A stretch of DNA of 58,776 bases from a virus: positions 1 to 58,776 of the IMG/VR virus record IMGVR_UViG_3300046167_000328. One strand, given 5' to 3'. Both the position numbers and the translations under genes were made by a program. Shown one piece after another: positions 5,301 to 57,333 of the stretch (position 1 is its first letter; each line of letters begins with the position of its first letter). The notes under the pieces were generated by a model, which worked only from the letters and a program-made list of their open reading frames with translations, ran no database searches and had not been told where the DNA came from.

Positions 5301-5509
5301 AAATATATAATATATAAGAGCGATAAGCGCCTAACTAGTATTATCAGCGAAGCGCCGTATTAAGTTCGAGTGCTATACACAAAGTGCTATACACTTTTAG
5401 GGGGGGGGGGGGTTATACTTAAGTGTCGCGTAGGACGGAGTCTACTCTTCCGATCATATTTCAAGATCAGGCCAATGCTGTTATCTAGATTATCTTACTA
5501 GCGTAGTAG
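5301..5509. other. Non-coding interval with short repeats and a G13 tract
   Basis: No credible gene. It holds near-direct repeats GAGCGATAAGCGCC (5318-5331) and CAGCGAAGCGCC (5345-5356), a perfect 11-bp direct repeat GTGCTATACAC (5370-5380 and 5384-5394), and a run of 13 G at 5400-5412. About 40 nt further on is CTCTTCCGATC, identical to the end of common Illumina adapters, so part of this interval may be an assembly artefact. Confidence 0.5.
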
Positions 5510-5778: not shown

Positions 5779-5819
5779 TACATAGATATTATCAAGTCGA
5801 CGCCGTATTTTCTTCGAAA
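5779..5819 (-). promoter_or_regulatory. Early promoter, family copy 7
   Basis: Minus strand: TTCGAAGAAAATACGG, 9 nt, GATAATAT (GATAATAT at 5786-5793, TACGG at 5803-5807), preceded by an A16 tract on the plus strand (5817-5832). First promoter of the minus arm next to the divergent region. Confidence 0.7.
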
Positions 5820-5861: not shown

Positions 5862-5971
5862 AAAATGTAAAACGTAAATGCCTGAAAATCAGGTATATAT
5901 ATGCGAAAAACGTAAAAAACAAGGGGGGCCCATAAACGTAAAACGCAAAAGGTAAAACGCTGAAAACCAGG
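5862..5971. repeat. Iteron-like GTAAAACG repeat cluster
   Basis: Units reading GTAAAACGTAAA, CGAAAAACGTAAA, AACGTAAAACGC and GGTAAAACGC recur within about 110 bp. Two are followed by related hairpin-like sequences (CCTGAAAATCAGG and CTGAAAACCAGG). The arrangement suggests protein-binding iterons or a replication origin; no experimental signature can be seen. Confidence 0.4.
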
Positions 5972-6022
5972 GAGTTAGGGGCCAACACTGTGCTCCTCTA
6001 TACGTAACGTGTTTTTAAATAC

Positions 6023-6069
6023 TGTGACATAAGCCTATTAAGGTTATATAGTAAGGGGCTATTGTCACA
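6023..6069. promoter_or_regulatory. Palindromic operator, copy A (upstream of late arm)
   Basis: An interrupted palindrome with arms TGTGACATAAGCC (6023-6035) and GGCTATTGTCACA (6057-6069), about 21 bp apart; the arms match as inverted repeats at 11 of 13 positions. The same element occurs at 55961-56006 with 32 of 34 conserved-arm positions identical. It lies about 60 bp upstream of the candidate late promoter, so it is a likely binding site for a phage regulator. Confidence 0.7.
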
Positions 6070-6158: not shown

Positions 6159-6428
6159 ATGCCACAAAAATTATCACCAAAAGCTTCAGCAGCTAAAAAA
6201 AAAAGAGACTTAGAAGCAGCTAATTCACCAGACAGGAAGAAGAAAAGAGCTGATAGTCAGAAAAAGCGTAGAGAAGCTATCAAGAAACACGGTGCAAATT
6301 GGTTGGTAGGTAAAGATTACGACCATAATACAGGAAGATTCACATCGTCATCCCATAATAGAGGCGGAACGCAGGCGAAGCACAAAAAAGATGGTACAAA
6401 AGCGGAAAAAAAACAATCAAAAAAATAA
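6159..6428 (+). CDS. Small highly basic protein (89 aa)
   Basis: First gene of the plus arm. Begins MPQKLSPKASAAKKKRDLEA; Lys and Arg make up more than a third of the residues, distributed throughout, which suggests binding to DNA or RNA, perhaps a virion DNA-condensing protein. It is followed after 3 nt by the tail-fibre-like gene. No family named with confidence. Confidence 0.75.
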   Translation: MPQKLSPKASAAKKKRDLEAANSPDRKKKRADSQKKRREAIKKHGANWLVGKDYDHNTGRFTSSSHNRGGTQAKHKKDGTKAEKKQSKK

Positions 6429-54462: not shown

Positions 54463-55224
54463 TTAAAGATAGTCAAGCACTTGCGAGTGGTCTACGCTAT
54501 CAATTAATTTTTCTACAGCAGACTTTTTTAGCTCAGAAACTCTTACATAAGAGCTTGTACCTTTTATCTCTAGTATTTCTGCTATTTTTTTTGCAGGTAA
54601 TTTATCACAGTCTAAACCATAAGATAATCTTAATACTTCGTACTCTAAATTGTTTAAGTGTTTTTGCATTAAACCTTTTAGATACAAATTAAGTAGCTGT
54701 ATATTATACGGCTCTGATTTGTCTGGTATTTGGTACATAGTATTTTCTTCATCATCATTAAGTTGCTGAGAGTCTATTGATAAAAATATAGAGTTAAAAA
54801 ACATAGAAACCATTTTCTTGTCTTTAGGATTTTTACGTATCTCATTTAGTTTATGTTCTGGTATACGTATATCTCCTCTGTTGATGTCTATACGTCTTCT
54901 AATGGCTCCTTTTATACGTTTAGACAGAAAGCTTTTTAATGTTTTTTCCGTGTCGTTAGATTCCATAAGTCTAGACATTTCTAATTTATCAACAGCTCTT
55001 GTCAATGCTTCATTACCTATTTGAATTAGATCATTTATAGATAAAACACCTGAAGCTTGTTGTGATGTAGAAAACTTACGTGCTAAATTTTCAACTAAAG
55101 GTAAAAACTTAACTATCAACTCATCTCTAGTATATTCGTCCCAAAACTTACCTTCGATATTCATTATAGATGTTTTAACATCTTCTTTATATCTTATGTA
55201 GTTCTGTATATTATATTTCTTCAT
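54463..55224 (-). CDS. Phage RNA polymerase sigma factor (sigma-70 family)
   Basis: 253 residues. Region 2-like LPLVENLARKFSTSQQASGV with LSINDLIQIGNEALTRAVDK (about 37-78) and a region 4-like helix-turn-helix, YEVLRLSYGLDCDKLPAKKI with AEILEIKGTSSYVRVSELKK (about 198-240). A connecting GDIRIPEHKLNEIRK region 3-like segment is present. It would direct host RNA polymerase to phage promoters. It lies in the early operon, so it may open the late arm or sustain the middle genes. Confidence 0.85.
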   Translation of the reverse strand: MKKYNIQNYIRYKEDVKTSIMNIEGKFWDEYTRDELIVKFLPLVENLARKFSTSQQASGVLSINDLIQIGNEALTRAVDKLEMSRLMESNDTEKTLKSFLSKRIKGAIRRRIDINRGDIRIPEHKLNEIRKNPKDKKMVSMFFNSIFLSIDSQQLNDDEENTMYQIPDKSEPYNIQLLNLYLKGLMQKHLNNLEYEVLRLSYGLDCDKLPAKKIAEILEIKGTSSYVRVSELKKSAVEKLIDSVDHSQVLDYL

Positions 55225-55351
55225 AATTAACTGGCATGTTATTAATAATATCTTGCTCTAATTTTTCTACTTTATTTATTAAGTATATGTTATCTGGTTG
55301 TACTATTTTTAATATAGATTTTATTTCTTTTATTTTATCTGAAGTAGTCAT
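55211..55351 (-). CDS. Small helical protein (46 aa)
   Basis: Begins MTTSDKIKEIKSILKIVQPD. Lys/Glu/Ile-rich helix, ending NMPVNYEEI. ATGA overlap with the HTH gene stop, and its end overlaps the sigma start by 14 nt: three genes linked by overlaps. Possibly a regulator partner (anti-sigma-like) but no evidence beyond position. Confidence 0.5.
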   Translation of the reverse strand: MTTSDKIKEIKSILKIVQPDNIYLINKVEKLEQDIINNMPVNYEEI

Positions 55352-55968
55352 AATTGCTGATTTAAAAGTTCTTTTTCTTTCTTAAGTTCGTAACTCATAT
55401 TTCTATGTATAGTTCTTGAAGAACAGTCTAATAGACCTGCTAGTCTAGTTATTGTTATTTTTTTACTATCATCATGAAGATCTAGCATACACTGGTATAT
55501 AGACTCTTCATCTACTCTAGACGATCTCCCTATTAACTTACCTACTATAACCATTTTTTCTCTTGTAGATAAACCACTACCATCTCTAAATATTATTTTT
55601 CTTAATTTATTTTTTGGTGGTTGCTCTAAATCTAACATGCTGACTTCATAAATTATATTATTTAAGCTTTGCTTATTAATAGTAAATGTCACAAAGCCAG
55701 AGATCTTGTTACATATGTGCTCAGCTAAATCATTAAAGCTGTCAGGATCTAGTTGTGGGTTTAAGTACCATAACACTAATAGATGCCATTTTAAACTACG
55801 ATATGTAGTTATCTTAGCCTTGCTTCTGAACAACTCGTAACACTGATAAGTTCCATCGACGTAGTAACTACCCCAAGAATAAACCTCAGTAGGTTGATCT
55901 GTTATAGGACTACGTCTATAGACTATTTTTCTTCGATGCAAGTATTCTAAATTTCTAATATGTGACAT
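55348..55968 (-). CDS. HTH transcription regulator (206 aa)
   Basis: Begins MSHIRNLEYLHRRKIVYRRS. The C-terminal part (about 130-200) has STREKMVIVGKLIGRSSRVD and then a helix-turn-helix, KKITITRLAGLLDCSSRTIH with RNMSYELKKEKELL, whose recognition helix (SSRTIHRNM) is classical. The N-terminal 120 residues are of unknown type. Its start codon lies inside the palindromic operator copy B, so autoregulation is likely; the same operator precedes the late arm. Upstream of the sigma gene in one operon. Confidence 0.7.
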   Translation of the reverse strand: MSHIRNLEYLHRRKIVYRRSPITDQPTEVYSWGSYYVDGTYQCYELFRSKAKITTYRSLKWHLLVLWYLNPQLDPDSFNDLAEHICNKISGFVTFTINKQSLNNIIYEVSMLDLEQPPKNKLRKIIFRDGSGLSTREKMVIVGKLIGRSSRVDEESIYQCMLDLHDDSKKITITRLAGLLDCSSRTIHRNMSYELKKEKELLNQQL

Positions 55969-56006
55969 TAGCCTATTACTATTTAATATTAGGGGCTGTT
56001 GTCACA
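55961..56006. promoter_or_regulatory. Palindromic operator, copy B (over HTH gene start)
   Basis: Arms TGTGACATTAGCC (55961-55973) and GGGCTGTTGTCACA (55993-56006), inverted repeats matching at 11 of 13 positions. The HTH gene ATG (55968-55966) lies in the left arm and the upstream 45-aa gene ends in the middle. Nearly identical to copy A at 6023-6069. It could act as a DNA operator or as an mRNA hairpin blocking translation. Confidence 0.7.
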
Positions 56007-56339: not shown

Positions 56340-56821
56340 AATTCGTTGATGTTAGATGGACGTATAATCTTCTGCTCATTTTTGTTTCTTATGTTTTGTT
56401 TTTCTTGTTCGTAATAATTCCAGTAAGCTAACAGGCTATTGTCACTAACCTTATATTCTTCTGGCATACATTGTGGTGGTTCTGTAAAGCCTCTATCAGG
56501 CATACCAACTGGCGGCTGAGCCAATGCTTCACGGCACTTTTCAATACTCATATGATACTTATTGTATCTAGCTGTGTATTCTTTACCGATCGCAAGCATG
56601 TGCTCGTATAGCCAATTGTAATGATGTATACTTTCTCGAACCCAAATTGTAGATGGATGGTTTAAGTGTGCTTTTTTGTATGGCACATTATGTCCGTTAT
56701 CATACGCATGGTGCGCTGTACAAAGCATCTGAGCACATTCTAATATCATTTTAACTTTATGCTTGTCATAGAAGTAGCTAGCGGCTTTTACAGGGTTTGG
56801 ATGTAGATAAAATATATTCAT
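56327..56821 (-). CDS. Conserved phage protein of unknown function (164 aa)
   Basis: Begins MNIFYLHPNPVKAASYFYDK. The blocks HKVKMILECAQMLCTAHHAY, NHPSTIWVRESIHHYNWLYE, EYTARYNKYHMS and QPPVGMPDRGFTEPPQCMPE recur, in my recollection, in a protein found across many phages, often without assigned function. His/Cys richness hints at metal binding. Early operon, between the KTSC-like gene and the basic protein. Confidence 0.65.
   Translation of the reverse strand: MNIFYLHPNPVKAASYFYDKHKVKMILECAQMLCTAHHAYDNGHNVPYKKAHLNHPSTIWVRESIHHYNWLYEHMLAIGKEYTARYNKYHMSIEKCREALAQPPVGMPDRGFTEPPQCMPEEYKVSDNSLLAYWNYYEQEKQNIRNKNEQKIIRPSNINELCED
56434..56445 (-). promoter_or_regulatory. Operator half-site (GTGACAATAGCC)
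   Basis: GGCTATTGTCAC, exactly the right arm of operator copy A, inside the 164-aa gene. No partner arm was found about 30 bp away, so a single half-site for the putative regulator, or a coincidence. Confidence 0.35.
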
Positions 56822-57046: not shown

Positions 57047-57333
57047 AATCTTTCTAATTTATCTATTAATTTATTTATTTTACTATGTACTTTAGCGGCT
57101 TCTTTGTAATCTTCTTTTTCTTCGTGCTGTGACAATAGCTTGCTAAGTCTTTCTATTTCCATTTGCAGTACTTCTTTTTCGTCTAAACCAAACACTTCAT
57201 CATTGTAATTTATCTCTAGACTACCTCCAGATTCTTTTACTTGTTTAATAAACTGTTTGTCGAACTCTGCCTGTCTTGTTAATAACTTTTGGAAAATAAT
57301 TTCCGCAAATTTTTCCATTTGTTCGTCTGTCAT
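57043..57333 (-). CDS. Coiled-coil protein with UVR-like C-terminus (96 aa)
   Basis: Begins MTDEQMEKFAEIIFQKLLTR. Helical with leucine heptads; the C-terminal HEEKEDYKEAAKVHSKINKL resembles the UvrB/UvrC-type UVR helical hairpin (E-xDYxxAAxxR/H). First gene after promoter copy 9, so an early product. It may contact a repair or clamp protein, but this is only pattern similarity. Confidence 0.6.
   Translation of the reverse strand: MTDEQMEKFAEIIFQKLLTRQAEFDKQFIKQVKESGGSLEINYNDEVFGLDEKEVLQMEIERLSKLLSQHEEKEDYKEAAKVHSKINKLIDKLERL
57128..57139 (+). promoter_or_regulatory. Operator half-site (TGTGACAATAGC)
   Basis: TGTGACAATAGC is the right arm of operator copy A, inside the UVR-like gene. With the site at 56434-56445 it is the second lone half-site in the same operon. 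Confidence 0.35.

Follow-up and report, generated by a model that had tools for sequence, protein, structure and literature searches.

The window, a phage record of 58.8 kb, carries two closely matching operator-like palindromes, one at the start of a gene for a 206-aa HTH protein and one at the divergence of the early and late arms. In related marine phages, which number in the hundreds, these elements are conserved in two or more copies, hold the same positions and co-occur with the HTH gene. On the evidence of sequence, we consider it probable that the protein is an autoregulated phage regulator that binds both sites and controls its own HTH–sigma operon as well as the late arm, probably as a repressor.

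Palindromic elements and their genomic setting

The plus-strand late arm (~6.2–44.8 kb) encodes chaperonin, terminase, portal, structural proteins and endolysin, and the minus-strand early arm extends leftward from ~5.7 kb to the end of the record and resumes at the right end, reaching 44.9 kb. We designate the copy at the HTH gene site A and that at the divergence site B, reversing the letters of the preliminary description (Table 1). Both palindromes reported there were recovered at their positions, with arms identical at 32/34 bases (17/18 left, 15/16 right) and unlike centers; the variable left-arm base, formerly placed at position 8, is position 9 (TGTGACATWAGCC). Site A consists of two half-sites TGTGACA-N-TAG, and CAT at 55966–55968, the start codon of the minus-strand regulator ORF, falls within its left arm, which confirms the proposed overlap. 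Site B lies, as also proposed, between the nearest early-promoter-like motif and the first late gene, an arrangement shared by relatives, with all promoters being predicted only.

Table 1 Positions of the regulator gene, the two elements and neighboring features in the window
Feature	Position	Strand	Length	Description
206-aa regulator gene	55348..55968	-	206 aa	C-terminal HTH at ~residues 154–190; N-terminal domain of unknown family
Sigma-factor gene	54463..55224	-		Downstream of the HTH gene; PHROG 351 (E 8e-18), Sigma70_r2 (E 3e-5)
First late-arm gene	6159..6428	+	89 aa	
Site A, operator-like palindrome TGTGACATTAGCCTATTACTATTTAATATTAGGGGCTGTTGTCACA	55961–56006		46 bp	Overlaps the HTH gene start codon
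Site B, operator-like palindrome TGTGACATAAGCCTATTAAGGTTATATAGTAAGGGGCTATTGTCACA	6023–6069		47 bp	Early/late divergence, 90 bp before the first late gene
Conserved promoter-like block AGGGGCCAACACTGTGCTCCTCTATACGTAACGT	5977..6010	+		Candidate late promoter, just upstream of site B
Early-promoter-like motif AAATACG-N10-TTGATAATA	5786..5809	-		Nearest to site B on the early side

A single palindrome of such quality is not unusual in this AT-rich window, but the matched pair is. Palindromes with 13-bp arms and at least 11/13 complementary positions number 15 in the window versus 35 expected from Markov-shuffled sequence, while an element pair sharing at least 24/26 arm bases occurs once in the window and in 0/60 shuffles. 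A paired half-site matrix recovers exactly sites A and B as full elements in the window, compared to 0.1 per shuffled window. As the training sets of this matrix included both sites, conservation in other genomes provides the stronger evidence. The matched pair and this conservation together exclude a chance palindrome. Two unpaired half-sites, at about 56423–56446 and 57128–57140, lie within early genes and were not counted as parts of the system; both are near what one mismatch yields by chance, and the first is shared with the nearest relative.

Conservation of the element with the regulator gene

A search with the HTH protein returned 27 viral contigs, all featuring the element at the gene start, with one weak copy (L019). 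When the search was extended with a 23-protein alignment, the matches in public viral contigs numbered at least 472 stretches, and 80 of these were retained. Across all loci fetched, 163/169 HTH gene starts (133 distinct loci) have the element there. Four of the six exceptions form a single clade (L102, L104, L108, L202), and the other two stem from one genome, in which the element is weakened (L019/L053). Insertion of genes for a small HTH protein and an HNH endonuclease (L104 9061–10019) has separated element and regulator ORF in L104; the intact element stays at its original place, 1.1 kb upstream, and is followed by a short relic start (ATG TCA CAT ... stop). It seems that this clade captured a new start for the regulator. 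With a sequence-only model, the element was recovered in 50/50 additional genomes. When the DNA pattern alone was used for retrieval, each of the 22 contigs measuring 46 kb or more encoded the HTH protein, and the 19 contigs without it were all shorter than 46 kb. Retention of the HTH gene with loss of both palindromes, the outcome against which the preliminary description had proposed to check related phages, was not encountered.

Among deposited phages, relatives share at most 63% terminase identity, and neither the HTH protein nor the sigma factor had a match; full elements were likewise absent from the three of these distant terminase relatives that were checked, none of which gave an HTH match. 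The deposited terminase relatives infect Flavobacterium, Cellulophaga, Tenacibaculum and Maribacter. Some homologs (L126, L129, L130, L131, L133) reside on short contigs in metagenome bins labeled Aliivibrio, Ilumatobacteraceae and Halieaceae, which probably reflects assignment of phage contigs to the wrong host during binning. A 129.5-kb contig contains element sets at 12.6, 13.4 and 20.0 kb that are repeated at 74.8, 76.3 and 82.3 kb, suggesting that two related genomes were joined in one contig.

Nearly all genomes that reach the first late gene carry the counterpart of site B in front of it, at a distance of 28–183 bp (usually 35–120 bp) and irrespective of which gene is first. Many relatives carry a third copy, termed C, in the early arm and in the same orientation as B; in several genomes, it lies 30–100 bp upstream of an early-promoter-like motif. 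Late-arm copies appear in a few genomes, being intergenic in L252 and L253 and inside a coding sequence in L055. Element polarity was considered as a pointer to the regulated gene and then discarded, since it fits A and B but neither the C copies nor the late-arm copy of L252. Such a distribution of copies is more readily explained by a transcription regulator than by a single origin or packaging site. The layout of an autorepressed regulator acting at a distant early/late switch, as originally suggested, thus holds insofar as an operator-like element accompanies both the HTH gene and the early/late divergence in more than 100 distinct relatives, whereas the third and late-arm copies indicate that the circuit is not strictly two-site. 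The additional suggestion of lysis timing found no support, as endolysin is encoded by a single gene located far within the 38-kb late arm.

Nature of the element and its candidate binder

Copies A, B and C define the half-site consensus AAAA[G/C]TGTGACAWTAGCCTRTTA, in which GAC, AG and, in at least one half, TTA show essentially no variation. Spacing between the two halves is flexible, as element length ranges from 45 to 50 bp across relatives. Conservation in site A is greater for the half proximal to the coding region; in B and C, both halves are equally strong. Codon 2 of the HTH gene is TCA in 127/133 loci and TCG in five, and in one genome (L015) ACG replaces ATG and the start lies 24 nt later while the palindrome is kept. 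The near-fixed codon and the palindrome persisting without its ATG both argue that the constraint at site A acts on DNA.

With the ATG at site A lying inside the palindrome, translational control by an RNA hairpin masking the start codon was considered. Pairing between the arms was at or below that of shuffled controls, and changes such as TGCGACG are uncompensated; this lack of covariation marks the element as a DNA site. Site B, moreover, lies ~30–180 bp away from the start codon of its gene, and the L104 clade has two genes between the element and the ORF. We reject the hairpin, which we regard as scarcely credible. An Rfam search of the window gave no match.

The 206-aa protein is best recognized through its family: HTH_11 was matched by 22/23 aligned members (best E 4e-6), with the window protein alone scoring below the Pfam cut-off. 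Its predicted model is confident, with a mean pLDDT of 87.8. No PHROG match was obtained, and profile searches of the PDB and fold searches with the protein returned nothing above chance (no fold match at E ≤0.001). One viral model, A0A516MIB4, is homologous (31% identity, E 1e-10) and of unknown function. As the N-terminal domain is without known relatives of known function, the protein may define a new family of phage regulators.

Downstream of the HTH gene, the sigma-factor gene is the next to be widely conserved, with a homolog in 125/133 HTH loci. Of the eight remaining loci, only one extends more than 2 kb past the HTH start, and its parent genome encodes the sigma factor 2.4 kb downstream. 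Given this co-conservation, co-occurrence alone would not separate the sigma factor from the HTH protein as the binder, and the elements might be read as promoters of the phage sigma factor (−35 TGTGACA, −10 TATAGT, 17-bp spacer) instead of operators for the HTH protein. By eye, the spacing in the copy at 6023 agrees with a 17-bp spacer. A length varying between 45 and 50 bp between conserved halves is too loose for −35/−10 recognition, however, and disfavors a sigma-factor promoter inside the palindrome; the equal strength of both halves in B and C also speaks against this reading, and a transcription start at A would leave almost no leader before the ATG. We judge the promoter interpretation to be very improbable.

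Residue–base correlations are weakly suggestive of binding by the HTH protein. Within a genome, the bases at the two most variable half-site positions, 3 and 7, correlate between sites A and B (rho 0.57 and 0.68, respectively). For position 7, raw mutual information is highest at protein columns 163, 153 and 155, all in the HTH domain, although after normalization the N-terminal columns 64 and 33 rank alongside these; enrichment of the HTH domain has p values of only 0.02–0.03. A tree-aware pair test had too few independent changes available, and both the A–B and the residue–base correlations reflect shared ancestry in part. We considered protein–DNA covariation as proof of binding and did not adopt it as such, since the signal is not independent of ancestry.

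Proposed control of the early/late divergence and relation to known systems

In the mechanism that we propose, the 206-aa protein would be made in the early phase and act as a sequence-specific DNA-binding regulator. Its subunits would each read one half-site, with a dimer or tetramer presumably filling the 46–50-bp palindrome. Bound at site A, which overlaps its start codon, the regulator would be autoregulated, limiting its own expression along with that of the sigma-factor and replication operon downstream. At site B, it would control the start of the late arm from a putative late promoter, with blocking likelier than activation. The regulator may also bind copy C where present; a simple late repressor leaves the C copies before early promoters unexplained.

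The arrangement of motifs around site B bears on the direction of this control. Aligned regions upstream of B revealed a promoter-like block with the consensus AGGGGGCAACACnATACnCCTATATTTnTAAnAT. Its copy in the window is unique (score 39 versus 3 for the next best). Upstream of B, the block exceeds the 99% background level in 43/65 genomes, mostly 6–17 bp from B, including 17/39 genomes outside the set used to build the block matrix, and is missing or unrecognized in 22/65. Only 1/131 site A regions contain it, and scores in deposited relatives remain at background level. No conserved RNA structure beyond a 4-bp palindrome was detected in the block. A short palindrome with compensated changes (CTGAAAACCAG) is located directly before it, at ~5960–5970. 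If the block is a promoter, site B starts at or just after the start point, the position of a blocking operator; the variable gap between block and B argues against an activator contacting polymerase in a fixed phase. Upstream of site A, no conserved promoter was found, which counts against the blocking proposed there.

The same regulator could, conversely, activate late transcription from a promoter between B and the first late gene and autorepress only at A. There would be room for this, as B leaves ~30–180 bp to spare upstream of the late gene, and a GTAAGTATATA motif occurs 10–55 bp downstream of B in 17/65 genomes. This motif, however, is confined to a minority and keeps no fixed distance, the better-conserved block lies upstream of B and places B at or after the transcription start, and the location of site A on the start codon is a blocking position. 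Activation, the main rival reading, appears rather unlikely to us. As a late promoter, GTAAGTATA was dismissed for its presence in a minority of genomes at variable distance.

On the early side, six or seven copies of the early-promoter-like motif were detected, all on the minus strand (5809, 5289, 5049, 3815 (variant), 2338, 834 and 58212). A further early-arm motif, GGAAGAGTAGACTCCGTCC, at 5433–5451 (minus strand) is sometimes found right beside the third element copy; its first 16 bases are exact in 23 fetched loci, some of them overlapping.

The location of site B at the switch of strand and GC skew, together with four iteron-like AAACGTAAAACGC repeats at 5863–5960 between the early promoter and B, would also suit a replication initiator for which B is the origin or a part of it and A an autoregulatory operator, as for plasmid Rep. 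A regulator site on the own gene is typical of Rep proteins, in line with this idea. Skew also follows gene direction, however, and inspection of the regions upstream of B in relatives gave no evident conserved iterons. Genomes contain two to four elements, some of which precede late or early genes, primase/helicase has a gene of its own and the 206-aa protein has no Rep family or fold match. We consider an initiator, the next rival after activation, improbable.

Returning to the autoregulated regulator, the Phage_integrase and Resolvase families are absent in 30/30 genomes, making control of lysogeny unlikely. A CI-like lysogeny repressor is thereby disfavored, and the circuit probably serves control of the lytic cycle. 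As a speculative extension with little probability in our estimate, the regulator might act as a timer: autorepression would hold it at a near-fixed amount, and the late arm would stay shut until replicating genomes, with two to four sites each, titrate it. Late expression would then be tied to genome copy number. The analysis names a candidate master regulator, an exact predicted motif, a candidate late promoter and early promoters in phages for which we found no literature on early-to-late switching.

The proposed circuit appears to work like known early/late switches, and the comparisons made here assign its regulator to no described family. Protein p4 of the Bacillus phage phi29 (~125 aa) activates the late promoter and is, like P2 Ogr, a late-transcription activator. 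Common to phi29 and the present system are a small phage DNA-binding protein, a site between divergent early and late promoters and a lytic phage, with DNA binding, promoters and lytic lifestyle being predicted here. The protein described here exceeds p4 in size and has a second predicted site on its own gene, and the palindrome spans 46–50 bp; no sequence or fold match indicated homology to p4-type proteins. Lambdoid CI and Cro are autoregulated repressors with 17-bp operator sites. They resemble our system in combining an HTH protein with operators, predicted in our case, at the own gene and at another operon, but the operators here measure ~46 bp with 18-bp half-sites, one site lies on the start codon and an integrase or lysogeny module is absent. 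Among CRP/FNR regulators, CRP has a half-site to which the outer half-site AAANTGTGA is similar. CRP half-sites are 6 bp apart (TGTGA-N6-TCACA), whereas the halves here are separated by ~30 bp within a total of 45–50 bp, and the protein has no cyclic-nucleotide domain or family match. P2 Ogr and P4 delta, both late activators, are zinc-finger proteins whose distance from each of several late promoters is fixed. They share with the present system palindromic sites ahead of late operons, while the phages studied here feature an HTH protein, a variable distance and one main late site.
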